From positions 1 to 64,000 of the IMG/VR virus record IMGVR_UViG_3300011116_001048: DNA of 64,000 bases. One strand, 5' to 3'. Under the pieces are notes generated by a model. The model searched no databases. It worked only from the letters and a program-made list of their open reading frames with translations, and had not been told where the DNA came from. Both the position numbers and the translations under genes were made by a program. This stretch comes from a virus. The number at the start of each line of letters is the position of its first letter. The stretch's first letter is position 1. Shown piece after piece: positions 4,367 to 59,394 of the stretch.

Positions 4367-4439
4367 GCCCTCTTAGCTCAGTTGGTAGAGCAGTTGACTT
4401 TTAATCAATAGGTCGTAGGTTCAATTCCTACAGGGGGCA
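4367..4439 (+). tRNA. tRNA-Lys(UUU)
   Basis: 73 bases. Acceptor GCCCTCT/AGGGGGC, anticodon loop CTTTTAA (UUU), and T-arm GTAGG-TTCAATT-CCTAC. The discriminator is A, and CCA is not encoded. It is the first gene after its promoter. Confidence 0.93.
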
Positions 4440-4443
4440 CTTT

Positions 4444-4516
4444 GGGACGGTAGACCAATGGCAGAGTCAAGACACTTAAAATGTCTGTAGTGTGGGTTCG
4501 AGTCCCACCCGTCCTA
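4444..4516 (+). tRNA. tRNA with UAA anticodon (nominal Leu) but short variable loop
   Basis: 73 bases. Acceptor GGGACGG/CCGTCCT, a perfect anticodon stem AGACA/TGTCT with loop CTTAAAA (UAA), a 5-base variable region GTAGT, and T-arm GTGGG-TTCGAGT-CCCAC. The anticodon reads UUA (Leu), but bacterial tRNA-Leu normally has a long variable arm, which is absent here. Charging identity is therefore uncertain. Confidence 0.85.
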
Positions 4517-4529
4517 CTTAGGAGAAATT

Positions 4530-4838
4530 ATGTCAGGTAAAGTAACTTGGAATTACAGAATTATCATGGACGATACTACCGAAGATCCACACGATTTTTG
4601 GTATGCTATCTACGAAGTGTATTATCTGGACGGCAAGCCTATTGATCACACTGTGAGCCAGTCTTCGGTATTTGGCGACAGTATGGAAGATCTTGCCCGA
4701 ACTCTTGCACACATGCGAGACGCACTAAACCATCCAGTTCTCAAGAAGTCGGAGTTTCCACCTATGGACAACTACCGTCGTGAAGAGTGGATGAAGGTCA
4801 AAGAATTTTCTCAAGATATTTCATTTGACAACGGTTAA
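4530..4838 (+). CDS. Hypothetical protein
   Basis: 102 residues, MSGKVTWNYRIIMDD..., with a beta-rich N-terminal part (WNYRIIMD, FWYAIYEVYYLDGKPI) and a helical second half. TTAGGAGA precedes the ATG with good spacing. The N-terminal strand pattern resembles small phage proteins built on a W-x-Y-R-I beta sheet, but I cannot name the family. It follows the two tRNAs and may share their transcript. Confidence 0.65.
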   Translation: MSGKVTWNYRIIMDDTTEDPHDFWYAIYEVYYLDGKPIDHTVSQSSVFGDSMEDLARTLAHMRDALNHPVLKKSEFPPMDNYRREEWMKVKEFSQDISFDNG

Positions 4839-4852
4839 TTCCGTAGTATAAT
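4825..4852 (+). promoter_or_regulatory. Consensus sigma70 promoter
   Basis: TTGACA, 16-base spacer, TATAAT: perfect hexamers. It lies over the 3' end of the previous gene. The predicted +1 at about 4859 gives a 76-base structured leader before the winged-helix gene. Confidence 0.85.
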
Positions 4853-4864
4853 GAAACAGCGTAA

Positions 4865-4908
4865 CTCGTTCATACAGGACAGTGAACGAGCTTAATATGA
4901 GATGTCCT
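4865..4908 (+). promoter_or_regulatory. H-type pseudoknot in mRNA leader
   Basis: Stem 1 is CTCGTTCA (4865-4872) with TGAACGAG (4883-4890), 8 bp. The loop bases AGGACA (4876-4881) are complementary to TGTCCT (4903-4908), 6 bp, giving a classic H-type pseudoknot with 3-, 1- and 12-base connecting loops. It begins about six bases after the predicted +1 and ends before the ribosome site (GAAAGG, 4921-4926). Function is inferred: autoregulation or ligand control of the downstream gene. Confidence 0.6.
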
Positions 4909-4934
4909 AAAATTTCTATAGAAAGGTTTACATT

Positions 4935-5207
4935 ATGCGTACAATTACAAAGCAAAACAAGGTAATCAACTACCTCACCAAGCGTGGTCGTACTCTCACC
5001 GCAGCCGAGGCTCGTGCTCGTTTCGGTGTACGTAACCTCCGTGCCACGATGAGCGATATCCGCGAAGTCGTTGAGGAGTTCGGTAACTGGCGTATTGAGA
5101 CTCGTACCAGCCCAACTGGTCGCACTCAATACATGATGCGTGACACGCATCCCGGTCGTCGTGTATTCAAGTTCCGTGCAGACGGTACTCGTTACAAGAC
5201 TCGCTGA
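4935..5207 (+). CDS. Small winged-helix DNA-binding protein
   Basis: 90 residues. NKVINYLTKRGRTLTAAEARARFGVRNLRATMSDIR is a helix-turn-helix: recognition-type helix after RFGV, then a wing-like GNWRIETRTSPTGRTQYMM. The C-terminal RRVFKFRADGTRYKTR is basic. It is likely a phage transcription regulator or nucleoid-type protein. It has a perfect promoter, a pseudoknot leader and its own terminator, so it is an independent, probably highly expressed and regulated unit. Codons are enriched in CGT/CTC compared with neighbours. Confidence 0.75.
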   Translation: MRTITKQNKVINYLTKRGRTLTAAEARARFGVRNLRATMSDIREVVEEFGNWRIETRTSPTGRTQYMMRDTHPGRRVFKFRADGTRYKTR

Positions 5208-5240
5208 TACACAATTTGGGAGTTTGTTCATCATGGAGAT

Positions 5241-5268
5241 CTGTCCCTTTAAAAGGACAGATTTTCTT
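5241..5268 (+). terminator. Rho-independent terminator
   Basis: CTGTCC / GGACAG stem (5241-5246, 5255-5260) with an 8-base loop, followed by ATTTTCTTT. It ends the winged-helix transcript. The GGACAG arm repeats the loop sequence of the leader pseudoknot. Confidence 0.7.
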
Positions 5269-5276
5269 TATAAATA
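5269..5276 (+). promoter_or_regulatory. T4 late promoter (TATAAATA)
   Basis: An exact match to the T4 late consensus octamer. The predicted +1 is about 5282, followed by GAGG and the ATG at 5291. Confidence 0.75.
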
Positions 5277-5290
5277 CCATGGAGGTTTTT

Positions 5291-5503
5291 ATGAGTGATT
5301 TATATTACGCAAAAACTGAAATAAATGGTAGAATTTTAGACCTTGTTCTTAATGAAGAGCAAGTGATTAGTGGAGTAAAGGCCGCAATAGATAATTCAGA
5401 ACTTGTATGCAAGATGAATCCCGGAAATTGTTGGCCTGTTGAAAAACCCGAAGACTGTCCACTTTGGAAGAAAATCTTCGGACTTTGTGGTTGCAAATCT
5501 TAA
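5291..5503 (+). CDS. Small cysteine-containing hypothetical protein
   Basis: 70 residues from the ATG at 5291, preceded by GGAGG. An upstream in-frame ATG at 5216 would precede the late promoter and terminator and is not used here. The C-terminal part has five Cys (CKMNPGNC, DCPLWKKIFGLCGC), possibly a small metal or disulfide knot. Expected late. Family unknown. Confidence 0.65.
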   Translation: MSDLYYAKTEINGRILDLVLNEEQVISGVKAAIDNSELVCKMNPGNCWPVEKPEDCPLWKKIFGLCGCKS

Positions 5504-5518
5504 TTTAGGAGATATAAT

Positions 5519-5851
5519 ATGAGTACTATGAAAAACACTGAAACTTTAATTATGCGTATGAAGACAGGTGAAGACGTTCTTTGCCGTGCCACTAAGACTG
5601 AGACCGGTTGGAATCTGGAGGATCCAATGGCTCTAATTCCAACACCAGACGGTCGTCTGGCGTTTGTTGGTTGGATGCCATTTGCCGATACCAAGAACGG
5701 TATTGACATTCCTGCAGATTTTGTGTACCTGACTCTAAAGCCTATGGACGATATTGCTACTCAATACATGTCGTTCAAGAGTGGTCTTGCCACTCCGGGC
5801 CCAAAGAAGGTTGTTGCTCCCGAGGGTCTAAAGCTCGTGGGTGCTGACTAA
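5519..5851 (+). CDS. Sm-like (Lsm-fold) small protein
   Basis: 110 residues. LIMRMKTGEDVLCRATKT is the typical first Sm strand-turn-strand (MKTGEEVI type), followed by LEDPMALI, AFVGWMPFAD and IPADFVYLTL strands. The same pattern appears in the N-terminal half of the protein at 52289, so the two are probable paralogues. Sm-like rings bind RNA or proteins; here the role is inferred only. TTAGGAGA precedes the ATG. The gene ends ten bases before tRNA-Arg. Confidence 0.6.
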   Translation: MSTMKNTETLIMRMKTGEDVLCRATKTETGWNLEDPMALIPTPDGRLAFVGWMPFADTKNGIDIPADFVYLTLKPMDDIATQYMSFKSGLATPGPKKVVAPEGLKLVGAD

Positions 5852-5861
5852 ACATCAGCAT

Positions 5862-5935
5862 ACACCCGTAACTCAGCTGGACAGAGTAACAGATTTCTAA
5901 TCTGTGGGTCGCTGGTTCGAATCCAGCCGGGTGTG
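5862..5935 (+). tRNA. tRNA-Arg(UCU)
   Basis: 74 bases. Acceptor ACACCCG/CGGGTGT, anticodon stem ACAGA/TCTGT with loop TTTCTAA (UCU), T-arm GCTGG-TTCGAAT-CCAGC, discriminator G. No encoded CCA. It reads AGA, a codon common in the AT-rich genes here. Confidence 0.93.
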
Positions 5936-5957
5936 TTTTTACTAAGGAGATTTATAA

Positions 5958-6188
5958 ATGAGTGTACCAAATTACATTCCCGGTCAAGCGTACAATATCG
6001 GTTACAATGCCCGCATGGAAGGCAAAGAAATGCCTGACGTTTCGGAAGTTGGTTTGTATTGGGACGAATATCGTGCTGGTTGGTTTGATGCTCATCGTGT
6101 AGTTCTTGAAAATGCTCGTAAAGATTATCAAGCATTCAAAACCAAGTTAGACGAAAATTCAGAAAAGCGTGAATTTCTACAGGATTAA
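5958..6188 (+). CDS. Ribosome-modulation-factor-like small protein
   Basis: 76 residues. AYNIGYNARMEGKE...YWDEYRAGWFDAHR matches the RMF pattern of a GY-x-A-x-x-x-G half followed, after a short turn, by an aromatic/Arg pair and a G-W helix. The homology is suggested by pattern only. If correct it could bind host ribosomes, as RMF does when it promotes 100S dimers. An AAGGAG site lies ten bases upstream of the ATG. The C-terminal 25 residues are charged and helical. Confidence 0.45.
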   Translation: MSVPNYIPGQAYNIGYNARMEGKEMPDVSEVGLYWDEYRAGWFDAHRVVLENARKDYQAFKTKLDENSEKREFLQD

Positions 6189-6191
6189 AAT

Positions 6192-6470
6192 ATGATGTCT
6201 AAGTACAAGACTTTTGTTGCAAATGGTGTGCAGCGTCATACTGACGCTCGTAGGCCCAGTATTACAGTTTATCCCGACCCTCTAAACGAAGGAAAGTACG
6301 TTGCGTGTTTTGAAGCGACAGACTGCGATGAACTTGTTAACGGTTATTCGTATAACGAATTACTGTCTATTCGTAATGCTATTAACGATGCACTTACTGA
6401 TATCGATGTTCGTGAAAGTGTAGCAGAACTAAACAAACACGATCCAAGGATTTATCCTTTCAATGATTGA
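6192..6470 (+). CDS. Hypothetical protein
   Basis: 92 residues beginning with two Met codons. It looks like a small alpha/beta protein: ITVYPDPLNEGKYVACFEATDCDEL strands, then SYNELLSIRNAINDAL helix. It overlaps the start of purA by eight bases. Family not recognised. Confidence 0.6.
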   Translation: MMSKYKTFVANGVQRHTDARRPSITVYPDPLNEGKYVACFEATDCDELVNGYSYNELLSIRNAINDALTDIDVRESVAELNKHDPRIYPFND

Positions 6471-7455
6471 ACAAGTAGACATTATTTACGGTCTTGCTTG
6501 GGGGGACGAAGGCAAAGGCAAAATTGCTAATGCCATGGCAAAGCATTACGATTACGTTTGCCGTTGGAATGGTGGTCCAAACGCTGGTCATACCGTTTAC
6601 GTGAACGGCCAGAAGCACAAAACCCATATCATTCCTTCCGGTATTTTTGCTGGCAAGAAGTGTGTGATAGGACCGGGGTGTGTTATAAATATTGATAAAT
6701 TCTTTGAAGAAGTGCGTACACTTCGTTCTGCAGGATTTAATACTGATCTTGTAAAGATATCACCTAATGCTCACATCATTACTCAAGAACACATTGAATA
6801 CGATAAGAGAAATCTTGGTCACTTGGGAACAACTGCTCAAGGCATCGCTCCCTGTTATTCCGACAAAATGCTCCGACGAGGCCGACGAGCGATTGAGATG
6901 ATGGATGCCCAGTGGCTCTGGGATGGTGAATTAAACGGTAAAATTTTATGTGAGGGTGCACAGAGTGTATGGCTTGATATTGATCATGGTGATTATCCAT
7001 ACGTTACTAGTAGTACTACGATGCCGTATGGTGCGTGCTCTCTGGGTTTCTCACCCCAAAAGATACGCCGAATCATCGGTGTGGCAAAAGCTTACGACAC
7101 GAAGAGTGGAGTAGATCCCCTATTCCCAACATCTTTGTGGGATGATCCGGTTCTAAACAAAATTATTGAACTGGGTGGCGAATACGGATCTACTACCGGG
7201 CGTAAGCGTTTGGTGAATTGGCTGAATTTAGATAAACTAAAGAAAGCTATACTACTATCCGGTTGCACAGAACTTATCATTAATAAGTACGATATTCTAC
7301 AACAAGTTAATGAATATAAGGTAATACACGGCAACGAAACACAAAATTTTGTAAGTTTTACTGATATGAAACGTTATGTTATGGATACGCTTCTTATGTG
7401 TGCGGGTTCTGCTCTTCACGATATTACTTGGTCTGATAGTCCAGAAAAAATTTAA
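6463..7455 (+). CDS. purA: Adenylosuccinate synthetase, compact form
   Basis: 330 residues, about 100 shorter than the bacterial enzyme (about 430). It joins IMP and aspartate with GTP to make adenylosuccinate, the first step from IMP to AMP. Motifs in order: LAWGDEGKGK (P-loop with the catalytic Asp retained), WNGGPNAGHT (catalytic His), GTTAQGIAPCYSDK, CEGAQSVWLDIDHG, PYVTSSTT, KAYDTKSG, GSTTGRKR and NKYD. The Asp in GDEGKGK distinguishes it from PurZ of 2-aminoadenine phages, where that residue is replaced. The start overlaps the previous gene. It pairs functionally with guaC at 2013. Confidence 0.87.
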   Translation: MIEQVDIIYGLAWGDEGKGKIANAMAKHYDYVCRWNGGPNAGHTVYVNGQKHKTHIIPSGIFAGKKCVIGPGCVINIDKFFEEVRTLRSAGFNTDLVKISPNAHIITQEHIEYDKRNLGHLGTTAQGIAPCYSDKMLRRGRRAIEMMDAQWLWDGELNGKILCEGAQSVWLDIDHGDYPYVTSSTTMPYGACSLGFSPQKIRRIIGVAKAYDTKSGVDPLFPTSLWDDPVLNKIIELGGEYGSTTGRKRLVNWLNLDKLKKAILLSGCTELIINKYDILQQVNEYKVIHGNETQNFVSFTDMKRYVMDTLLMCAGSALHDITWSDSPEKI

Positions 7456-7461
7456 TAGTAA

Positions 7462-7535
7462 TCCCGAATAGCTCAGTTGGTAGTAGCGCGAAGCTGTTAA
7501 CTTCGATGTCACTGGTTCGAGTCCAGTTTCGGGAG
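7462..7535 (+). tRNA. tRNA-Asn(GUU)
   Basis: 74 bases. Acceptor TCCCGAA/TTCGGGA, anticodon stem CGAAG/CTTCG with loop CTGTTAA (GUU), T-arm ACTGG-TTCGAGT-CCAGT, discriminator G. No encoded CCA. It lies six bases after purA. Confidence 0.93.
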
Positions 7536-7548
7536 TTTGGAGGTTGAT

Positions 7549-7692
7549 ATGGGCGGTAAACACGATGCAGGAAAAGGTGACCAGTATCGTTCGGTAAATT
7601 GGGAACAGTATTCCAAAAACTGGGACGATATATTTGGTAAAAAGAAAACCAAGAAAAAAGACACCAAAAAGGTTGACTCTAAGAAAAAATAG
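7549..7692 (+). CDS. Small phage protein with N-W-D-D-I-F-G-K motif
   Basis: 47 residues, MGGKHDAGKGDQYR..., then YSKNWDDIFGKKK and a Lys-rich tail. Very short proteins with a central NWDxIFG box are common in large myophages, but their function is unknown to me. GGAGG lies four bases before the ATG. The 3' end contains the -35 and spacer of the next gene's promoter. Confidence 0.6.
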   Translation: MGGKHDAGKGDQYRSVNWEQYSKNWDDIFGKKKTKKKDTKKVDSKKK

Positions 7693-7700
7693 AGTATAGT
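7673..7700 (+). promoter_or_regulatory. Sigma70-like promoter, leaderless
   Basis: TTGACT, 16-base spacer, TATAGT (7695-7700). The predicted +1 is 7707, the A of the deaminase-like ATG. Confidence 0.6.
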
Positions 7701-7706
7701 TACAGT

Positions 7707-8078
7707 ATGACCAATACTCTGATCGATTCGTATTTGGAGCAGGCGTTTCCGTTGTGTATGGAACTGCCTCGCCAAAAGAAGCACGTTTCTTTCATTCTCC
7801 ACAAGAACCGAATCGTAGCTACAGGTCGTAATTTCTTCAAAACTCATCCCAAGGCCAAGGTTATTGGTTATCCGTTTGACGAGATGCATTCAGAACTGGA
7901 TGCGTACCGTAAGGTGCCGTACAATCTTCGTAATAAGAAGTTGACGCTTCTCAACGTTCGTTTTAATCGTTTTGGTGAACTTCGTATGGCCAAGCCGTGC
8001 GAACTGTGTCTTCCGTGGTGTCGTGAAATTTTTCATGAAATTAACTACACCACCGATCAGGGAATTATTACTCTATGA
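7707..8078 (+). CDS. Cytidine-deaminase-fold protein
   Basis: 123 residues with HSELDA (His61 ligand, Glu63 catalytic) and PCELC (Cys98, Cys101), the zinc signature of the cytidine/deoxycytidylate deaminase superfamily. The length matches free-nucleoside or small nucleic-acid deaminases and is shorter than T4 dCMP deaminase (193). The substrate could be a nucleotide, tRNA or a guanine derivative; sequence does not decide. It is transcribed from its own promoter without a leader. Confidence 0.75.
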   Translation: MTNTLIDSYLEQAFPLCMELPRQKKHVSFILHKNRIVATGRNFFKTHPKAKVIGYPFDEMHSELDAYRKVPYNLRNKKLTLLNVRFNRFGELRMAKPCELCLPWCREIFHEINYTTDQGIITL

Positions 8079-8269
8079 GAAATTGTAAACCTAGTGATGT
8101 GCAAGCCCTAGAAGTTATATGCGGTAATTTACACCAGATAAGCACAGAAATCTCTGTAATAAATGGTAAGTTAAACAAGCTTCGTAAAGAGATTGAAAAT
8201 TACGTAAATCAAGAACAGGAACCAATCGATGTTTCGACTCCACATGGACTTTCCGCTGACAACGCCTGA
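8075..8269 (+). CDS. Small helical hypothetical protein
   Basis: 64 residues with a heptad-like helix (LEVICGNLHQISTEISVINGKLNKLRKEIENY), probably a short coiled coil. The ATG overlaps the previous stop (ATGA), suggesting translational coupling. Family unknown. Confidence 0.55.
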   Translation: MRNCKPSDVQALEVICGNLHQISTEISVINGKLNKLRKEIENYVNQEQEPIDVSTPHGLSADNA

Positions 8270-8483
8270 AACAGATTCTGCTAATACTTGTAATCGTTTT
8301 GTCGAATTTCTTCAGCAACACAAGGACGTTTTGATTGATATGGGATTTGCTGATATCAATTTTCGCCTTGGTCACGATCAAGATCGTCAAAAGTCAAACT
8401 ATCTGATCAAGAATGAAAACGGGCATGTTGCTAATAAAAAGTCACGAATTAACTTGCTTCCCGCCGAATCTGATGTAGAATAA
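8229..8483 (+). CDS. Hypothetical protein
   Basis: 84 residues from the first ATG. A second in-frame ATG at 8244 would shorten the overlap with the preceding gene from 41 to 26 bases and is an equally likely start. The core has a helix RFVEFLQQHKDVLIDMGF followed by a strand. It ends six bases before the tRNA-Ile 5' end. Family unknown. Confidence 0.5.
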   Translation: MFRLHMDFPLTTPETDSANTCNRFVEFLQQHKDVLIDMGFADINFRLGHDQDRQKSNYLIKNENGHVANKKSRINLLPAESDVE

Positions 8484-8489
8484 GACTAT

Positions 8490-8561
8490 GGGATGCACGT
8501 GTCGGGTGGCACAGGATTGCTTATAACGATCTACCGCAGAGTTCGAGTCTCTGGCATCCTA
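8490..8561 (+). tRNA. tRNA-Ile(UAU)
   Basis: 72 bases. Acceptor GGGATGC/GCATCCT, anticodon stem GATTG/CGATC with loop CTTATAA (UAU), T-arm CAGAG-TTCGAGT-CTCTG, discriminator A. The UAU anticodon reads AUA directly; most bacteria use a lysidine-modified CAU instead. Confidence 0.85.
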
Positions 8562-8567
8562 CTACAT

Positions 8568-8765
8568 ATGTACATGAATAAACCCAATCCTCTAGCAGAT
8601 AAAGTGACCAAGTATGTGCTGGAATATCTACTGAATAGATTTGATCTACAACCCGGTGATGTTAATAATATCCGAATGATTATTACCAGATCACTAAACA
8701 AAAACAACAAACAACCAATCGTTCCAGTAATTAAAAAGAAAAAGAACAAAGGCCCCATAGATTAA
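8568..8765 (+). CDS. Small basic hypothetical protein ending inside tRNA-Glu
   Basis: 65 residues. An upstream in-frame extension would begin inside tRNA-Ile, so the ATG at 8568 (or 8574) is used. It has a helical body (VTKYVLEYLLNRF), then a Lys-rich tail (KKKKNKGPID). The final five codons including the stop lie inside the tRNA-Glu gene. Family unknown. Confidence 0.5.
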   Translation: MYMNKPNPLADKVTKYVLEYLLNRFDLQPGDVNNIRMIITRSLNKNNKQPIVPVIKKKKNKGPID

Positions 8766-8824
8766 CTGGCCAAATCCTCGCCCTTTCACGGCGATGACTG
8801 CGGGTTCGAGTCCCGCTGGGGTCA
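8751..8824 (+). tRNA. tRNA-Glu(UUC)
   Basis: 74 bases. Acceptor GGCCCCA/TGGGGTC, anticodon stem TCGCC/GGCGA with loop CTTTCAC (UUC), T-arm GCGGG-TTCGAGT-CCCGC, discriminator A. The first 15 bases double as the end of the preceding coding sequence. Confidence 0.93.
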
Positions 8825-8831
8825 CTACATT

Positions 8832-9761
8832 ATGCCTATTCGCAATATCGGTTACGCCTGTCAAAACCTGTCCATCAATGAGAACGTCAAGAAGAAAGAT
8901 TATATTACTTCTGATCGTACTCTCCGTATGTCAGGGTTTAGCCTTGATCGCTGCGGTCAGCTTGCTGCGGTTAATACGCGAGATCTGGTAAAGATCATGG
9001 AATGGAATGCTGATAACGGAATTAAACTATTCCGTGTCGGTAGTGGAATTTTTCCGTTCATGGATCATCCAGAACTAGGATACAAGCTTCATTATCTGGA
9101 CGAAGCCCACCAGAAGCTCATTACAGCCCATATGAACGAGGCTGGCCGTATTGCCCGTGAGGCGGGTATTCGCCTGTCATGCCATCCGGGGCCGTATACG
9201 TGCCTTGCAAGCCCTAATACAGCCATCGTACAAAAGTCTATCATGTGTCTGGAAATGCACCAGCTGATTGGTGACCTGTTGGGTCATGCAGACGACTTTA
9301 ATATTAATATTCACGTTGGTGGTGTGTATGAGGACAAGGCTACTACCGCCAAGCGTTTCTGCGACACGTACAAGATCTTGAACCCCAACCTTCAGCGTCA
9401 ACTCACTGTGGAAAACGATGACAAGGAATCTATGTGGAGTCCCATGGATCTGTACAATATGATTTACTCTGGTTGTGGTGTGCGTCTGGTGTACGATTAC
9501 CATCACCATAGATTTTGTCATAATATGGAAACTGTTGACCGTGCTGTGGAACTGTGTTTTTCCACTTGGCCAGAAGATCAAGTTCCGGACACGCACTATT
9601 CTGAATCTGCGATTGGTAAGCGTCCTCAGGCCCATTCTGATTATATCGAAGGTCCTCTGCCTGTATTCGATACGGACAGAGAATACGATGTTATGCTGGA
9701 GACCAAGGCCAAGGATCTTGCTCTCAAAAAGTACTTGACAGAACACGCGGGTGTGGTATAA
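8832..9761 (+). CDS. uvsE: UV-damage endonuclease
   Basis: 309 residues of the UvsE/UVDE TIM-barrel family, which nicks DNA 5' of UV photoproducts and other lesions. Motifs: NIGYACQN at the start, LFRVGSGIFPFMDHP, LSCHPGPYTCLASP, INIHVGG, LTVENDD (metal-binding Glu), VYDYHHHRFC and AHSDYI. The full barrel is present. The stop codon TAA lies inside tRNA-Gly (bases 9759-9761). Confidence 0.9.
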   Translation: MPIRNIGYACQNLSINENVKKKDYITSDRTLRMSGFSLDRCGQLAAVNTRDLVKIMEWNADNGIKLFRVGSGIFPFMDHPELGYKLHYLDEAHQKLITAHMNEAGRIAREAGIRLSCHPGPYTCLASPNTAIVQKSIMCLEMHQLIGDLLGHADDFNINIHVGGVYEDKATTAKRFCDTYKILNPNLQRQLTVENDDKESMWSPMDLYNMIYSGCGVRLVYDYHHHRFCHNMETVDRAVELCFSTWPEDQVPDTHYSESAIGKRPQAHSDYIEGPLPVFDTDREYDVMLETKAKDLALKKYLTEHAGVV

Positions 9762-9762
9762 T
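9735..9762 (+). promoter_or_regulatory. Consensus sigma70 promoter hidden in tRNA-Gly
   Basis: TTGACA (9735-9740), 16-base spacer, TATAAT (9757-9762). Both hexamers are perfect, with the same spacing as all other promoters of this class here. The -10 falls in the D-arm region of tRNA-Gly, so it could be coincidence or could drive the gene at 9820. Confidence 0.4.
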
Positions 9763-9817
9763 GGTAGCACGACTGCCTTCCAAGCAGTAGACAAGGGTTC
9801 GATTCCCTTTACCCGCA
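9747..9817 (+). tRNA. tRNA-Gly(UCC)
   Basis: 71 bases. Acceptor GCGGGTG/TACCCGC, anticodon stem ACTGC/GCAGT with loop CTTCCAA (UCC), T-arm AAGGG-TTCGATT-CCCTT, discriminator A. Its first 15 bases overlap the end of uvsE. Confidence 0.93.
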
Positions 9818-16860: not shown

Positions 16861-17091
16861 ATGGTCTTATTTTTTGATAATGAAACACAAAACGATTTCT
16901 GCAGAGAAGTCGAAAAATACGTAGAAAAATGGAAAACTAATTATCTAGACGCAGTTATAAGCATCTGCGAAGCTAAAGATATTCCGGTAGAAAGTATTGC
17001 TAAAATTTTATCTAAGCCTATAACTGAAAAAATTAAACAGGAAGGGCAAGATTTAAACTTTTTACCCAAATCGTCAAAATTACCTATTTAA
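16861..17091 (+). CDS. 33: Late-transcription co-activator gp33
   Basis: 76 residues resembling T4-family gp33: a FCREVEKYVEKWKTNYLDAVISICE helix pair, then IPVESIAKIL, and the C-terminal NLNFLPK motif. The family binds the RNA polymerase beta-flap and connects gp55 to the gp45 clamp to activate late promoters. T4 gp33 is 112 residues; marine relatives are shorter, like this one. Start ATG 16861 follows TATATT directly. The partners (55, 45, 44, 62) are encoded in the same window. Confidence 0.75.
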   Translation: MVLFFDNETQNDFCREVEKYVEKWKTNYLDAVISICEAKDIPVESIAKILSKPITEKIKQEGQDLNFLPKSSKLPI

Positions 17092-36210: not shown

Positions 36211-36218
36211 CATAAATA
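36211..36218 (+). promoter_or_regulatory. T4-type late promoter octamer (CATAAATA) before gene 13
   Basis: CATAAATA followed by CTG. The predicted +1 is about 36224, giving a 12-base leader with AAGGAAG before the ATG at 36236. Confidence 0.65.
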
Positions 36219-36235: not shown

Positions 36236-37036
36236 ATGGCAAAACCTAATTCAAGACAAGCAATAATTGAATATGCTTACAGACAACTGGGTTCTCCGGT
36301 TATCGATATAAACGTAGATTGGCAACAAGCCGAAGACCGTTTAGACGATGCTTTACAATATTTTACTGAACGCCATTTTGATGGTGTTGAAAAGGTATTC
36401 TTTAAATATCAGTTAACACAAAACGATATTACCAATCGATACATCAATACCGAAGACATCCTTTCTCCAAATGAGGTTGATGGTCCTACAGGTAAAGAAA
36501 TAGTGTCTGTAATTAAAGTAATGCAATTTGGTCAGTTTACAAACATTAATATGTTTGATGTACGATACCAATTAGCCCTAACCGATTACTTTGGTATCAA
36601 TAGAAATCTTAGTGGTACTTATTCTATGGGCCTTGCATCATACGATGCCACAAAGAGATACATTCAATTAATTCAAGATCTATTTCAACCCGAAAAAGCA
36701 GTAGTGTTTAGTAAAGTAACAAATAGACTGTATCTAGACATGAATTGGGATGCTGAAACTAAAGCAGGAGACTGGATTTGTATCTGGGCATACGCTGCTT
36801 TAGATCCAGAAAAATACACAGAAATTTTTAATGACCGATATTTAAAACGATACGTGACTGCACTAATTAAACGCCAATGGGGTGCAAACATGGCAAAGTT
36901 TGATGGTGTTGCTCTTCCCGGTGGTGTTACTATGCGTGGTGGTCAAATATACGCAGAAGCAAACGCAGAAATTGCAGCGATTGAACAACAAATTCAGCGC
37001 GAATACGAACTGCCAGTTGATTTCATGACAGGCTAA
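36236..37036 (+). CDS. 13: Neck protein gp13
   Basis: 266 residues (T4: 309). It begins MAKPNSRQAIIEYAYRQLGSPVIDINVDWQQAEDRLDDALQYFTERHFDG, which is typical of gp13. gp13 forms the head-proximal neck ring. Start of the neck-packaging-head operon under a late promoter. Confidence 0.9.
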   Translation: MAKPNSRQAIIEYAYRQLGSPVIDINVDWQQAEDRLDDALQYFTERHFDGVEKVFFKYQLTQNDITNRYINTEDILSPNEVDGPTGKEIVSVIKVMQFGQFTNINMFDVRYQLALTDYFGINRNLSGTYSMGLASYDATKRYIQLIQDLFQPEKAVVFSKVTNRLYLDMNWDAETKAGDWICIWAYAALDPEKYTEIFNDRYLKRYVTALIKRQWGANMAKFDGVALPGGVTMRGGQIYAEANAEIAAIEQQIQREYELPVDFMTG

Positions 37037-38650: not shown

Positions 38651-39100
38651 ATGGAATCTTCTGATATTATTTCTGAAAATTTAGGTATTGAATTTAAAGA
38701 ATCAACACCAACACCAATAATAAAAAAACCAGAAACTACTTCTGGTATTAGTTTAGATGCGGATTTTAATTATGTTCGTGAAAATATCAAAGGATTGATT
38801 GATAATGGGTCTTGTGCTATAGACGAAATACTAAAGGTAGCAAAGGCGGGTGACTCCCCACGAGCATACGAAGTACTTGGTCAATTATTAAAAACTGTAT
38901 CAGAAATGAATAAAGATCTGATTGACCTGTATCAAAAAACTAAACACGTCAAAAAAGAAGAGATCAAAGTTAATAACACAACAAATAATTCAATATATGT
39001 GGGCTCTACAAGCGAACTGCAAGATCTTATCAATAAAGATCGTAGTAGAAGAAAAGCACTAGACAGTCAACATTTTTTAGACGGTAACAATGGGATATAA
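38651..39100 (+). CDS. 16: Small terminase gp16
   Basis: 149 residues (T4: 164). The central helical hairpin DFNYVRENIKGLIDNGSCAIDEILKVAKAGDSPRAYEVLGQLLKTVSEMNKDLIDLYQK is typical of T4-type small terminase, which recognises concatemeric DNA and stimulates gp17. Overlaps gene 17 by 11 bases. Confidence 0.88.
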   Translation: MESSDIISENLGIEFKESTPTPIIKKPETTSGISLDADFNYVRENIKGLIDNGSCAIDEILKVAKAGDSPRAYEVLGQLLKTVSEMNKDLIDLYQKTKHVKKEEIKVNNTTNNSIYVGSTSELQDLINKDRSRRKALDSQHFLDGNNGI

Positions 39101-40769
39101 AAAAAAATCAGGATATCTTGGTAATCCCAATCTTAAAGAGATTGGTACCGAAATACAGTTTACAAAAGAGCAGGTTGAAGAATATATTAAATGCTCTAAT
39201 GATCCTGTTTATTTTATTAAAAAATATATTAAGATTGTAACTACAGATAAAGGACTTGAATCGTTCGGATTATACGATTATCAAGAAGATATCGTAAACA
39301 CCATTCAGAATAATCGGTTTGTTATTGCAAAGCTGCCACGCCAGACAGGCAAGAGCACAACAACCGTTGCGTGGATGGTTCATTATCTGGTCTTTAATCA
39401 AAACGTAAATATAGCCATTCTTGCAAACAAAATGAAAACGGCTATGGAGATCATGAAACGTTTAAAAGAAGCGTATGAGTATCTTCCTAAATGGTTACAA
39501 CATGGCGTTGTAGAGTGGAACAAGACTTCTATTCAGCTAGAAAACGGATCCCGTGTAATGGCGTCCGCAACATCTGCATCTGCCGTTCGTGGTGGTTCAT
39601 ACAACGTGATATTCATGGATGAGTTTGCTCACGTTCCTGCTAATATTGCTGACGAATTCTTTAGTTCCGTATACCCAACTATTACTTCGGGTCAAACCAC
39701 CAAAGTTATTATAGTATCCACTCCAAACGGCTTAAACATGTTTTATAACCTTTGGCAAGGAGCTAATCGCAAACCCGGTGAAGAAGGCAAAAACGAATAT
39801 GTGCCCATCGAAGTTCATTGGAGTGAAGTTCCCCTGTATCCGGGTGGTCCATTACGCGATCAAAAATGGAAAGAACGAACCATCAAACAGTTAGGTGGTG
39901 GTTCTGGTGGAGAACAAAAGTTTAAAAGCGAGTACGATTGCGATTTTATTGGTTCTTCTAATACTCTTATTTCCACAGCAAAATTACACACTTTAGTTGC
40001 CAAAACACCGGAGTCAAGAATGGCAGAAGGGCTTTGGGTCTACGAAGAACCCAAATCTAATCGAGTGTATGTAATGACTGCGGACACTTCTCGTGGGCAA
40101 GGAAAAGATTATAGTGCTGCTATTGTTTTTGATATAACAGAAACCCCGTATCGTATTGTAGCAAGATATAGAAATAATATTATATCTCCTATGTTATACC
40201 CAACAATACTAGCTGCCTTGGGCAGAAAATACAATAATGCATACATGTTGGTTGAGGTTAATGATATTGGAGGGCAGGTAGCGGATATTTTACATTATGA
40301 TTTGGAATACGAAAATTTACTAACAAGCATGAATAAAGGCCGTGCTGGTATGGTTTTAAATGGTGGATTTGGTAGAGGCGAAACTTTACTGGGCGTTCGA
40401 ACAACGGCTGTAGTTAAAAAATTAGGCTGTTCTATTCTTAAAAGTCTTATAGAACAAGACAAATTGATAATACAAGACGAGGACACCATAAAAGAACTGT
40501 TATCATTTGTTGCAAAATGGAATAGTTTTTCTGCGGATGATGGTCACACCGACGATCTTGTTATGTGTTTAGTTTTGTTTTCTTGGGTAACCAAACAGCC
40601 ATATTTTAAAGAAATTACAAACATTGATATTCGAAAAGAATTGTTTGACGGAGAAATCAAAAAAATCGAAGATGATGATTGGTTTAGTTTTGGATTTATT
40701 TCCACAATTGACGACAATCCTCGGGCTCCAACAAAAACTGAAGACGGAGAGACTTGGTTTATGGCTTAA
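39090..40769 (+). CDS. 17: Large terminase gp17
   Basis: 559 residues (T4: 610). It is the ATP-driven packaging motor and headful nuclease. Walker A is LPRQTGKST (82-90) and Walker B with catalytic Glu is VIFMDEFA (173-180). The RNase-H-fold nuclease has ADTSRG (Asp332), VEVNDIGG (Glu389) and a terminal DGHTDDLVM. No intron or intein is present. Confidence 0.96.
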   Translation: MGYKKKSGYLGNPNLKEIGTEIQFTKEQVEEYIKCSNDPVYFIKKYIKIVTTDKGLESFGLYDYQEDIVNTIQNNRFVIAKLPRQTGKSTTTVAWMVHYLVFNQNVNIAILANKMKTAMEIMKRLKEAYEYLPKWLQHGVVEWNKTSIQLENGSRVMASATSASAVRGGSYNVIFMDEFAHVPANIADEFFSSVYPTITSGQTTKVIIVSTPNGLNMFYNLWQGANRKPGEEGKNEYVPIEVHWSEVPLYPGGPLRDQKWKERTIKQLGGGSGGEQKFKSEYDCDFIGSSNTLISTAKLHTLVAKTPESRMAEGLWVYEEPKSNRVYVMTADTSRGQGKDYSAAIVFDITETPYRIVARYRNNIISPMLYPTILAALGRKYNNAYMLVEVNDIGGQVADILHYDLEYENLLTSMNKGRAGMVLNGGFGRGETLLGVRTTAVVKKLGCSILKSLIEQDKLIIQDEDTIKELLSFVAKWNSFSADDGHTDDLVMCLVLFSWVTKQPYFKEITNIDIRKELFDGEIKKIEDDDWFSFGFISTIDDNPRAPTKTEDGETWFMA

Positions 40770-40770
40770 C

Positions 40771-40813
40771 CTCCTAAAAATATAAATATTATGTAAATTA
40801 GACATTTTAGGAG
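40771..40813 (+). promoter_or_regulatory. Inverted repeat sequestering the gene 18 ribosome site on read-through RNA
   Basis: CTCCTAAAA (40771-40779) pairs perfectly with TTTTAGGAG (40805-40813). The right arm contains the gene 18 Shine-Dalgarno AGGAG. The late promoter lies in the loop, so transcripts beginning there (about 40794) lack the left arm. T4 uses a similar arrangement for lysozyme gene e. Confidence 0.6.
40781..40788 (+). promoter_or_regulatory. T4 late promoter (TATAAATA) before gene 18
   Basis: An exact consensus octamer, in the loop of the inverted repeat. The predicted +1 is about 40794. Confidence 0.8.
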
Positions 40814-40818
40814 AAAAA

Positions 40819-42006
40819 ATGCCAGTAACTACACAAAATAACGTTTTTACTTCCACAACATTCAGTGAAGCAGCTTCTCCACTGGTGGCTGGTGTGGTTT
40901 CTTTTAGAGGATTAGTTCAACTGTTTGGTAAAACTGGAAGTAATGGTACATCTGAAGTAGAAATTGGTTTAATGGGCGTTTCTAGCGTAAACGAATGGTT
41001 TAGCAGACTATATTCCAGCAGTGTTGGTGTGTCTGGTCCAACCGGATCTTGGGCTGGCGAATGGTGGGCAGTTCATAATTATTTACAATACGGTGGTGTC
41101 TGTTTAGTAGGTGCCACTGGTTCAACCGGTGATTATTATAGCGCAAATGGTGTATTAGGAATCACCAAAACCCCACTCCACAACAAATCTTTAGCATCTA
41201 TTGATGTGGTTTTTGAAGCAGGAAATACATTCTCAGTTGGTGCTGCCGTAGATATTGCAACAAATAGAAAAGATTGTATTGCCATAATTGGTAATATCAA
41301 TAAAATAACAGGAATTCCTCTAAGCACAACTTATACTAATCAACTATTAGATTTTGGTACAAACGCAACCAGTGAATACGTGGTTTACGTTGCTGGTAGA
41401 AAGAAATTTACTGCTGGTGTTGGTACCGACGTAATTATTTTAGAAAACAATCTAAGTCCAGATGTTGCTGGTTGTATGGCTCGTTCTGCCAGAGATTTTA
41501 CTATTTGGTCGTCGCCTGCAGGAAAAACCCGTGGACGAATATTAGGAGTTATTGCTTTACAACAAACATTTAACGAGACAGATTCAGATTATTTAGTTGC
41601 AGGAAATGTAAATCCTGTAATGGTTCTTCCCGGAGAAGGAACATTTTTAATGGGTAATGAAACCTCATACACTAGTACTGGTTCATTAAGTAAGATTAGC
41701 ACCACTAGTATGGTTGCATACCTGAAAAAACAACTACTATCTGTCGCTCAAGGGTTACTGTTTGAAGTAAATGATGCCAGTACTCGTCAAAGAATGGTGT
41801 CTTCAGCTACACCCATTTTAGAATCAATTAAATCTGGAAATGGAATTACAGATTATCGTGTGGTTTGTGATGACACCAACAACACGAGCACAACAATCTC
41901 TCAAAATAAACTAGTTGTAGACGTGTACGTTAAACCAACATTTACAGCAGAAACACTGGTAATTACCATTATAAATACTACAACTTCTCAAGCATTTAGT
42001 GGCTGA
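40819..42006 (+). CDS. 18: Tail sheath gp18, compact
   Basis: 395 residues, much shorter than T4 gp18 (659). It keeps an N-terminal MPVTTQNNVFTSTTFSEAASPLVAGVVSFRGLVQLFG segment, the AGEWWAVHNYLQYGGVCLVG region and a C-terminal polymerisation domain with SVAQGLLFEVNDASTRQRMVSSATPILESIKSGNGITDYRVVCDDTNNT. The protruding domains of T4 appear to be missing. AGGAG lies five bases before the ATG. Confidence 0.9.
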   Translation: MPVTTQNNVFTSTTFSEAASPLVAGVVSFRGLVQLFGKTGSNGTSEVEIGLMGVSSVNEWFSRLYSSSVGVSGPTGSWAGEWWAVHNYLQYGGVCLVGATGSTGDYYSANGVLGITKTPLHNKSLASIDVVFEAGNTFSVGAAVDIATNRKDCIAIIGNINKITGIPLSTTYTNQLLDFGTNATSEYVVYVAGRKKFTAGVGTDVIILENNLSPDVAGCMARSARDFTIWSSPAGKTRGRILGVIALQQTFNETDSDYLVAGNVNPVMVLPGEGTFLMGNETSYTSTGSLSKISTTSMVAYLKKQLLSVAQGLLFEVNDASTRQRMVSSATPILESIKSGNGITDYRVVCDDTNNTSTTISQNKLVVDVYVKPTFTAETLVITIINTTTSQAFSG

Positions 42007-42018
42007 TAAGGAATTTCA

Positions 42019-42591
42019 ATGGCCAATCATTCAATAACAGATTTTATTTCTAAATTTGGTGGTGGAACCAGAATTAACCGTTTTCACGTAACCGGTAAAT
42101 TGGGTGAATCTACAGTATTGGATGATAATGGTGGTACGTTTCATATTCGTGCTGCATCTTTGCCCGCATCCCAAATAGGCGGAATACCAATAAATTACAG
42201 GGGAAGAACTGTGGTGTACCCCGGCGATAGAGTTTACGCACCTTGGCAAATTACAGTTATTGATGAGAATCCAAAATCAACACAAACCGGTAAAACGCTT
42301 TATAAGGCGTTTCACGACTGGAGCAACCAGATCAATAATCACAAAATAAATACAAGTACCCAAACAAATCCGTCTAAGCATTTTTCTGACCAATCTTCCA
42401 GTGCAGCTTCAACGTGGTCCATCAAGCAACTAGATACTAACGGAACAACAGTTATACGCGAATTTAAATTATATAATTGCTGGCCCATGGTTGTTGGAGC
42501 AATCGAACTGGATATGAGTCAGGACAACGTTTTAGCGTCATTTTCTGTGGTCCTTGCGTACAGTCATTTTGATTATGTACTTTCTAACTAA
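42019..42591 (+). CDS. 19: Tail tube gp19
   Basis: 190 residues (T4: 163). FISKFGGGTRINRFHVTGKLG, the ASLPASQIGGIPINYRGRTVVYPGDRVYAPWQITVIDE strand block and a C-terminal YNCWPMVVGAIELDMSQDNVLASFSVVLAYSHF identify the tube protein. It directly follows the sheath gene, as usual. Confidence 0.92.
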   Translation: MANHSITDFISKFGGGTRINRFHVTGKLGESTVLDDNGGTFHIRAASLPASQIGGIPINYRGRTVVYPGDRVYAPWQITVIDENPKSTQTGKTLYKAFHDWSNQINNHKINTSTQTNPSKHFSDQSSSAASTWSIKQLDTNGTTVIREFKLYNCWPMVVGAIELDMSQDNVLASFSVVLAYSHFDYVLSN

Positions 42592-42609: not shown

Positions 42610-44184
42610 ATGGAATTAGAACTGTTCGGATTCTCAATAGGCCGTAAAAAACAACCACAAGAAACTCGTGATGTTATCACGCCAGAAGCATACGATGGTG
42701 CGTATGTTTTAGAAACTGGTGGTGTTTTTGGTACTTTTGTTGATTTCTCTGGTTCGATTCGTGATGAAAATCAGATGATTCAACACTACCGTTCCATGTC
42801 ATTATATCCAGAAGTAGACATGGCGATTGAAGATATTGTTAATGAAGCAATAGTATTAGATCTAGACCGCAAACCAATTAAATTAAATTTAGATCATGTT
42901 AATCTATCAGAAACTATTAAAACTAAGATATATTCTGAGTTTAATCACATTTTAAAGCTGTTGGATTTTGCCAATAAAGGTCCAGAAATTTTTCGTAGAT
43001 GGTATATTGATTCTCGACTATTTTACTACAAAAAAGTAGATAAAAACGATCTACGTAAAGGGATCACCGAACTTATTCCAGTTGATCCTGTTAAAATTAA
43101 AAAAATTAGAAAGATAGAAAAAGACCGAGCTGTTTACGGCGGTTCTGGTCCTTTCTCTCCCACCAAAGAAATTCAAGAATACTTTGTGTACACTGATACC
43201 GATAAAGAATCCACGTTTCCAACCACTTCGTCTGGGTGGAAAATTGCTCCCGACACTATGGCGTATGTACACTCTGGTATAGTAGACAGTGTTACTCGTC
43301 GTATAGTTGGTCATTTACAAAAAGCTGTACGCCCACTAAATCTTCTACGTCAAATTGAAGACGCCGTTGCCATTTATCGTATTTCTCGTGCACCGGAACG
43401 TCGTATTTTTTATGTAGACGTAGGTAATCTTCCTAAACAAAAGGCAGAACAATATTTACGCGAAATCATGAATCGGTATCGTAACAAAGTAATTTACGAT
43501 CCTAATACTGGTCAAATTAAAGACGAACGCAACCACATGAGTATGCTTGAGGATTTTTGGATGCCTCGTCGTGAGGGTGGCCGTGGTACCGAAATTAGCA
43601 CCTTAGATGGTGGCCAAAATCTAGGTCAAATGGAAGACGTAATGTACTTACAACAAAAGCTTTTCCGTGCTCTTGGTGTACCTATTTCCAGAATGATGGG
43701 CGAAAGTGGCTTTAACATGGGTCGTTCTGCAGAAATTACACGCGATGAAGTTAAATTTAATAAATTTATTGATCGTCTACGTCATCGTTTTTGTGGGCTG
43801 TTTTTAGACGTTCTTAAGACTCAGATAATTCTTAAAGGAATTATGACTGAAGAAGATTGGAACCGTATTAATCAAGATATTACGTTTAGATTTAATAACG
43901 ATTCTTATTTTACTGAATTAAAAAATAATGATATTTTAAGAGAACGTTTAGATATTATTGCTGCTGTTACGCCTTATCTTGGAAGATTTTTCTCTAACGA
44001 ATACGTCAGAAAGAACTTCTTAAAACAATCTGAAGAAGACATTTTACAGATTGATGCAGAAATTACTCGTGAAATGCAAAAACAAGCAGAAGCACAAGAA
44101 ATGCAAGCGTATCAACAAATGTTGGCCGGAGAAGACCCAGAAGCAACTGAAGAAGAAACACCACAGGAAGAATCGCCAGAATGA
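42610..44184 (+). CDS. 20: Portal vertex protein gp20
   Basis: 524 residues (T4: 524). The conserved core MIQHYRSMSLYPEVDMAIEDIVNEAI, FRRWYIDSRLFYYK, APERRIFYVDVGNLPKQKAEQYLREIMNRYRNK and EFWMPRREGGRGTEI-type (here EDFWMPRREGGRGTEI) is diagnostic. The acidic Gln/Glu-rich C-terminus is usual. It forms the dodecameric DNA gate and nucleates prohead assembly. Confidence 0.96.
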   Translation: MELELFGFSIGRKKQPQETRDVITPEAYDGAYVLETGGVFGTFVDFSGSIRDENQMIQHYRSMSLYPEVDMAIEDIVNEAIVLDLDRKPIKLNLDHVNLSETIKTKIYSEFNHILKLLDFANKGPEIFRRWYIDSRLFYYKKVDKNDLRKGITELIPVDPVKIKKIRKIEKDRAVYGGSGPFSPTKEIQEYFVYTDTDKESTFPTTSSGWKIAPDTMAYVHSGIVDSVTRRIVGHLQKAVRPLNLLRQIEDAVAIYRISRAPERRIFYVDVGNLPKQKAEQYLREIMNRYRNKVIYDPNTGQIKDERNHMSMLEDFWMPRREGGRGTEISTLDGGQNLGQMEDVMYLQQKLFRALGVPISRMMGESGFNMGRSAEITRDEVKFNKFIDRLRHRFCGLFLDVLKTQIILKGIMTEEDWNRINQDITFRFNNDSYFTELKNNDILRERLDIIAAVTPYLGRFFSNEYVRKNFLKQSEEDILQIDAEITREMQKQAEAQEMQAYQQMLAGEDPEATEEETPQEESPE

Positions 44185-53053: not shown

Positions 53054-53647
53054 ATGTCAAGTGGAAAATTAAAAAAAGTTAAAAAGAAGATAAAACCAGA
53101 AAAACAAATAGAAAAATTAGTAGAAAAAGAATTAAACAACGATCATTACGTAGACAACAAGCAATTCTTAGCGGAAATGATCAAGTGGAAAAGAGAAATA
53201 CGAGAAGCTGAAGATAGTGGCGATGAAAAACCACCAGTTTCTGAATATATTGGAAGTTGCTTTTTAAAGATTGCAGAACGATTATGTTCTAAATCTAATT
53301 TTATGAACTATCCGTACAAAGATGAAATGATCGGTGATGGAATTGAAAATTGTTTGATGTACGCTCACAATTTTAATCCACGTAAATCAAAAAATCCATT
53401 TTCATATTTTACTCAAATAATATATTATGCATTTTTACGCCGAATAGAAAGAGAAAAGAAACAAGCATACATAAAATTTAAGTTGACAGAGAACATGGAT
53501 GATGGTACACTACATAAGTGGTTTAAAGAAAATTATTTTGATAAATCAACCGAACGTGAAGCTCTAAGTGAGCATTTTAGTATTTCTGAACGTGATATAG
53601 AAAAGTACGAACCAAAAAAACGTAAAAAGCGTAAATCTACAAAATGA
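53054..53647 (+). CDS. 55: Late sigma factor gp55
   Basis: 197 residues (T4: 185). AERLCSKSNFMNYPYKDEMIGDGIENCLMYAHNFNPRKSKNPFSYFTQIIYYAFLRRIEREKKQAYIK is the sigma-region-2-like core that recognises TATAAATA late promoters. The C-terminal helix near YFDKSTEREALSEHFS may contact the gp45 clamp. The N-terminus is very basic. Overlaps gene 47 by four bases. Confidence 0.93.
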   Translation: MSSGKLKKVKKKIKPEKQIEKLVEKELNNDHYVDNKQFLAEMIKWKREIREAEDSGDEKPPVSEYIGSCFLKIAERLCSKSNFMNYPYKDEMIGDGIENCLMYAHNFNPRKSKNPFSYFTQIIYYAFLRRIEREKKQAYIKFKLTENMDDGTLHKWFKENYFDKSTEREALSEHFSISERDIEKYEPKKRKKRKSTK

Positions 53648-58692: not shown

Positions 58693-58707
58693 AAGGAAAT
58701 GTATATT

Positions 58708-59394
58708 ATGACTAAAGCGACAACAACAATCTCTAAGGATACGCTGAACATTCTTAAGAATTTCAGCGGTATTAATTCTAATCTGTATGTAAAGCCCGGT
58801 TCAAAGATTACAACTATGTCCCCTACCAAGAACATCATGGCAGAGGTAGAAGTTGAAGAATCTTTTGATACTGAGTTTGGTATTTGGGATCTGAACAAGC
58901 TTCTGGGTGTTATTTCACTGTTTCAAGAACCAGAATTTGCTTTTGAAAACAAGTACATGACAATTACTGGTGCTAGAGGTTCCACTGTAAAATACTATTA
59001 TTCTGATCCTAAGCTCCTATCATATCCAACTAAGAGCATCAAGAAGATCGATTCTGTCGTAGAGTTTGATCTTACTGCAGATGACTTTAAGGAACTACAA
59101 CGAGCAAGTGCTGTTCTAGGCAATCCAGATTTGTGTTTTATTTCTGAAGATGACAAGGTACTTGCTGTGGTAAAGGATCTCAAGGATCCAACCTGTAACG
59201 TGTTCTCTATTGAGGTTGGTGAAAACAAGAACGAAGCCGAGTTTTCATTTAACTTCAAGATGGAAAACATGAAGATGTTAGATGGAGATTATCACGTAGC
59301 TCTGTCTAAGAGCGTGATTGGTCAGTTTACAAACGCCAGTCGTCCACTAACGTATTGGGTGGCTATGGATGCCAGCAGCACCTACAAGGGATAA
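58708..59394 (+). CDS. 45: Sliding clamp gp45
   Basis: 228 residues, exactly the T4 length. SKDTLNILKNFSGINSNLYVKPGSKITTMSP, then EFGIWDLNKLLGVISLFQ and YHVALSKSVIGQFTNASRPLTYWVAMDASS identify the trimeric clamp. It tethers DNA polymerase and activates late transcription through gp33/gp55. The ATG at 58708 is preferred to 58699 because AAGGA is too close to the earlier one. Confidence 0.96.
   Translation: MTKATTTISKDTLNILKNFSGINSNLYVKPGSKITTMSPTKNIMAEVEVEESFDTEFGIWDLNKLLGVISLFQEPEFAFENKYMTITGARGSTVKYYYSDPKLLSYPTKSIKKIDSVVEFDLTADDFKELQRASAVLGNPDLCFISEDDKVLAVVKDLKDPTCNVFSIEVGENKNEAEFSFNFKMENMKMLDGDYHVALSKSVIGQFTNASRPLTYWVAMDASSTYKG

Follow-up and report, generated by a model that had tools for sequence, protein, structure and literature searches.

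The window analysed here covers positions 1-64,000 of an IMG/VR virus record that is 118,564 bases long, and its genes are those of a T4-type myovirus. The named phages closest to it by DNA were marine T4-type phages, cyanophages among them; 434 of the 435 matching records had only 60-80% identity. One near-identical IMG/VR contig was found (L081/L003; terL 100%, gp18 99%). The tail sheath gene gp18 was located immediately downstream of terL (Table 1). The window also contained genes for homologues of gp55, gp33 and gp45, which serve late transcription in T4 according to PMC3014915 and the T4 annotation. Six tRNA genes were dispersed among small ORFs at 4367-9817; they were the sole matches in an Rfam scan of the window, in which 40771-40813 had no match at the gathering score.

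Table 1. Coordinates of the genes and sequence features discussed (positions within the 64,000-base window)
Feature	Position	Strand	Remark
gp33 late-transcription coactivator	16861-17091	+	phrog_254, E 5.5e-20
Late-type element CATAAATA	36211-36218	+	motif match only; 25 nt upstream of the gene at 36236; closest promoter-like site found ahead of terL
terS	38651-39100		
terL, terminase large subunit	39090-40769	+	directly upstream of gp18
Predicted outer helix, 5' side	40755-40765	+	last terL codons; pairs with 40821-40831 in read-through RNA
Left arm CTCCTAAAA	40771-40779	+	begins 2 nt past the terL stop codon
T4-type late promoter element TATAAATA	40781-40788	+	between the arms
Inferred start region of late-promoter RNA	40792-40796	+	spacing taken from T4
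Right arm TTTTAGGAG	40805-40813	+	
Shine-Dalgarno (SD) AGGAG of gp18	40809-40813	+	within the right arm
gp18 tail sheath gene	40819-42006	+	395 aa
Predicted outer helix, 3' side	40821-40831	+	third base of the gp18 start codon plus codons 2-5
Tail tube gene	42019-42591		
Portal gene	42610-44184		
gp55 late sigma factor	53054-53647	+	phrog_234, E 8.4e-58
gp45 sliding clamp	58699-59394	+	phrog_223, E 1.4e-73

A sequence-only reading of this DNA had described a perfect 9-bp inverted repeat that brackets the TATAAATA of gene 18 and carries the AGGAG of that gene in its right arm, and both descriptions were confirmed at their coordinates. The inverted repeat is real: the arms are 9 nt each, 100% complementary and separated by 25 nt. 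The copy of TATAAATA between them lies 30 nt upstream of the gp18 start, and the SD lies 5 nt upstream of the gp18 ATG (40819). TATAAATA likewise separated terL from gp18 in those junctions of the clade that were listed, and the element alone was not enriched in the window (7 copies versus 7.04 expected). The start region of the late-promoter RNA was placed with a promoter-to-start distance that we take to be that of T4.

This geometry suggests how gp18 translation may depend on where its RNA begins. Read-through RNA entering from terL includes the left arm; this arm would pair with TTTTAGGAG and hide the SD, and an outer helix predicted in this phage would also close around the gp18 start codon. 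RNA begun at the enclosed late promoter would lack the left arm, and its ribosome site would be open. We expressed this as a penalty, defined as the predicted SD-opening energy in RNA with the upstream sequence minus that in RNA begun 5 nt past TATAAATA. For gp18 of the window the penalty was about 9 kcal/mol (9.0 for the read-through RNA versus 0.0 for the late-promoter RNA; 9.1 in a second run), near the value obtained for T4 gene e (11.7) and the highest among the nine scored TATAAATA-start pairs of the whole contig, the other eight being at most 3.4. Opening of 40807-40821 was predicted to cost 13.7 kcal/mol in the read-through RNA versus 2.4 kcal/mol in the late-promoter RNA. Leaving terL out of the long RNA, by starting it at 40770, lowered the SD penalty from 9.1 to 5.6, which indicates that part of the effect depends on the outer helix. 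An equal or larger penalty arose in 1 of 4000 dinucleotide-shuffled 45-nt left flanks, and when the left flanks of other promoters were set on the gp18 right side, 1 of 83 reached 9; the fold itself stood out only slightly (MFE z about -2.0).

By prediction, then, the three features of a switch of the T4 gene e type were all found at this locus, namely a promoter between the arms, a helix over the SD in the long RNA and an open site in the late RNA. The sequence-only reading had proposed that read-through RNA is folded and blocked and that late-promoter RNA is translated. Its structural half agrees with our predictions, in which the difference between a closed and an open SD was stable at 10-37 °C and whichever of 40792, 40794 and 40796 was taken as the start, and matches a mechanism proven in T4; its translational half would follow if the RNAs fold and repress as predicted.

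To place the hairpin among relatives, loci were gathered by scans with gp18, terL and the gp18 alignment, and the promoter was found in 66 of 105 distinct gp18 junctions. The close clade was defined by gp18 58-76% identical to that of the window, and 22 distinct junctions were scored. The listing of junctions omits three terL-matched loci whose junction lies beyond the contig end, and loci with no terL match. A penalty of 3 kcal/mol or more was reached by 11 of the 22 (L161, L081, L083, L084, L085, L088, L205, L207, L129, L166 and L209), a count that includes both the phage of the window and its near-copy. The other 11 were below 3 kcal/mol (L130 2.3, L208 2.1, L002 1.5 with an incomplete flank, L102 1.2, L210 0.8, L136 0.7, L101 0.5, L195 -0.6, L204 -1.5, L095 -1.6 and L094 -1.8), and some of the closest relatives, such as L136 and L094, have lost the hairpin. 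L095, L101, L102 and L208 lack the left arm, and their terL extends nearer to the promoter.

Where pairing was retained, its sequence often differed. The helix of L129 is formed by ACTCCTAA/TTAGGAGT, that of L207 is retained via a G-U pair, that of L084 is formed, in a shifted register, by TCTCC/GGAGA and AAAATAT/ATATTTT, and a rearranged longer arm does the pairing in L205. The predicted helix is thus not simply copied, being retained by different sequences in these four. CTCCTAAAAA was retained in the window's phage and in the L129/L166/L209 lineage, and the stretch from promoter to SD has diverged with indels. In L129 (2758-2890; also L130, L166 and L209), the SD under hairpin control is followed by a leader ORF of about 24 codons. 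This ORF ends in TAATG and so overlaps the start of gp18, which has shifted about 80 nt downstream. The hairpin is retained in the L129 sister lineage, and both the SD and the left arm are degraded in L133/L210.

Conservation of the left arm, on which the sequence-only reading had made its proposal depend, was therefore partial: half of the clade junctions stayed at or above the 3 kcal/mol mark and half fell below it, and mapping this label on the gp18 tree required at least six changes with no clustering (124 of 500 shuffles were as low). The covariation in relatives that the same reading had suggested looking for did not appear. Over nine pairs and 16 sequences there was no two-sided compensatory change and the score lay within that of shuffles (245 of 500 as high), and RNAalifold returned no consensus structure.

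The close clade nevertheless stood out when left flanks were exchanged between junctions, in tests whose outcome is inflated by relatedness. With the SD alone scored, which could be done for 55 of the 66 junctions (promoter within 48 nt of the start and 25 nt of left flank), all 55 together exceeded their swaps (0 of 150 reached the observed value); the excess was found in the 15 clade members (2 of 150), and the 40 others had none (37 of 150). Swaps made inside the clade were borderline (20 of 300). When the region from the SD to the ATG was scored in 58 junctions (those with 60 nt of left flank and, in addition, L129, L130 and L166 at their upstream leader start), the 18 clade members had a mean penalty of 2.96 versus 1.00 (sd 0.40) after swapping, which 0 of 120 swaps reached, and the 40 other gp18 junctions again showed no excess (70 of 120). 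Across 84 distinct TATAAATA-start pairs of any gene in the fetched loci, a penalty of at least 2 was found in 10 versus 10.0 per swapped set. A general rule for late promoters was rejected on this survey, which indicates that the signal is specific to the sheath gene of the clade.

A second sheath lineage (L254, L256 and L264), with gp18 36-38% identical, carries a different nested hairpin in the same place. In L254 and L256 it consists of CCTAAATAT/ATATTTAGG around TCTAAATA, with a close variant in L264 (MFE -11.9 to -14.8). This independent hairpin, seen at three junctions only, is the strongest hint that the arrangement serves a purpose. Twelve named-phage stretches were also fetched, among which CP220 and S-PM2 had no usable promoter or SD; the unannotated marine loci L405-L408 lay outside the scored set. 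None of the six cultured phages scored had the hairpin (Melnitz 2.0, HTVC008M -0.8, S-B68 -0.6, ACG-2014h -0.4, P-SSM4 -1.1 and S-CREM1 0.3). Two further sheath genes, L279 and L291, which came from the pattern scans described next, were not counted, their left arms lying inside the terL coding sequence and their penalties being about 2.5 and 0.9.

The arrangement was also sought as a sequence pattern in viral_contigs. CTCCTAA..TATAAATA..TTAGGAG was found in 19 stretches versus 6 with the left arm reversed, and CTCCTTT..AAAGGAG in 88 versus 40; after filtering for a gene start downstream of the SD and no divergent gene, 5 versus 1 and 19 versus 10 distinct genes remained. Several matches were near-copies of one family, and 8 of the 19 and 50 of the 88 had no gene start, so that these scans argue only weakly for the arrangement. 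Among the loci recovered, L167/L171/L175/L176, L168, L170/L183 and L177 carry TATAAATA within long CTCCTAA/TTAGGAG hairpins (MFE -11.3 to -21.3), and the genes behind them encode small proteins of 87-145 aa, that of L167 matching phrog_35646. In L280, L344 and L346, CTCCTTT/AAAGGAG hairpins around TATAAATA precede genes that by eye encode putative GIY-YIG or HNH homing endonucleases, which is consistent with I-TevI and mobE.

The stricter claim of the sequence-only reading, that sheath synthesis is restricted to late-promoter RNA, was weakened by what lies upstream. In a motif scan of the gene run before terL, which excluded host-type promoters, the sole promoter-like site was itself of the late type (36211), so that the purpose is less probably timing than making output depend on the promoter of gene 18 itself. 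Moreover, a ribosome stopping at the end of terL would cover the left arm: with 40752-40780 blocked as a rough ribosome footprint, the predicted penalty fell from 9.1 to 0.0 kcal/mol. A wording in which sheath translation is tied to RNA begun at the gp18 promoter is better supported.

The same blocking result makes a coupling role a live rival. In such a valve, gp18 would be closed in read-through RNA except when the left arm is covered by a ribosome completing terL; sheath made from read-through RNA would then be proportional to terL, and the late RNA would be translated freely. The left arm begins just past the terL stop codon, which lies exactly 11 nt upstream of TATAAATA in 15 of 16 aligned junctions (the exception being L205) and inside the left arm in L254 and L256. 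Against this, the SD lies 40 nt past the terL stop, which is far for classical coupling. The left arm of T4 e also reaches the upstream stop codon, yet lysozyme synthesis from the long e transcripts, which fold into the structure, is reported to be reduced 100-fold, the late transcripts lacking the 5' strand (PMC3014915); this favours a plain block. We rate coupling as quite unlikely.

If the AT-rich spacer merely holds a chance complement of the SD, which relatives inherited and which drifts without affecting regulation, this would account for the patchy retention, its scatter over the gp18 tree and the missing covariation; late promoters in general showed no excess, and the site was chosen by a reader seeking oddities. 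The rarity of the penalty among shuffled flanks, the clade excess that no SD-to-ATG swap reached, the retention of CTCCTAAAAA next to a diverged promoter-SD stretch and the separate hairpin of the second lineage all argue against chance or a relic, which we consider unlikely. It is barely credible that the left arm acts as a DNA element, such as an upstream part of the promoter, or as part of a terminator, with RNA pairing irrelevant. Most clade spacers do end in an A-run directly before TATAAATA, but the other late promoters of the contig have no CTCC in that place, and no T-run follows the right arm (the next letters are AAAAAATG), as an intrinsic terminator would have.

The inverted repeat is most likely a working, partly conserved switch of the T4 e type at a sheath gene. 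We lean towards a model in which the bulk of the sheath protein would come from gene 18's own late RNA and little from the read-through RNA, which would be poorly productive. A bolder proposal, to which we give little credence, is that T4-type phages have repeatedly built such a gate between terL and the sheath gene, own-promoter output and a terL-proportional leak together setting the sheath-to-terminase ratio, with gain or rebuilding in at least two lineages and many losses.

The known T4 cases silence lysozyme and homing endonucleases in early RNA (PMC3014915, PMC2988022). The sheath case, if true, would bring the switch into bulk virion assembly, where the issue is probably stoichiometry or premature self-polymerisation of gp18: the T4 tail uses 138 copies of gp18, and full-length gp18 made as a recombinant protein forms polysheaths by polymerisation (PMC3004832). 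It would also offer a readable marker of promoter-specific translation for uncultured T4-type phages. What seems to be new here is the architecture of e, soc, 49 and I-TevI at a sheath gene. Our literature search, which left subscription papers mostly outside its scope, found no earlier report of such a switch at a sheath gene, and neither 'gene 18' nor 'gp18' occurs in the main text of PMC3014915.

T4 itself served as a control. Among the 14 of 19 pairs listed, e came first (11.7) and I-TevII second (11.1), followed by genes 26 and 51 (9.3 and 8.9); 49, I-TevI, I-TevIII and segB were not among these pairs, so a scan for exact TATAAATA may miss proven cases. Genes 26 and 51 are divergent, with mutually complementary SDs around overlapping late promoters (NC_000866, 116428-116479), and the read-through RNA of each would hide its own SD. 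T4 gene 18 resembles the window in the gene order 17-18-19-20 and in having TATAAATA directly upstream, but it has no left arm and its penalty was 0.7. The soc gene, which is listed with gene 49 alongside e among SD-sequestering cases (PMC3014915), belongs to the same class as the candidate described here, yet scored only 2.3. Leaders with a promoter in a hairpin have been described for T4 I-TevI, I-TevII, I-TevIII and segB and for Aeh1 mobE (PMC2988022); they share the arrangement of the window, but their products are homing endonucleases encoded in early or middle transcripts. The switch of T4 gene e is experimentally proven and silences a lysis enzyme in early transcripts, whereas that of the window is a prediction for a structural gene whose upstream RNA is possibly late. 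In both, a late promoter lies inside the hairpin, the SD is in the 3' strand and the left arm reaches the upstream stop codon.
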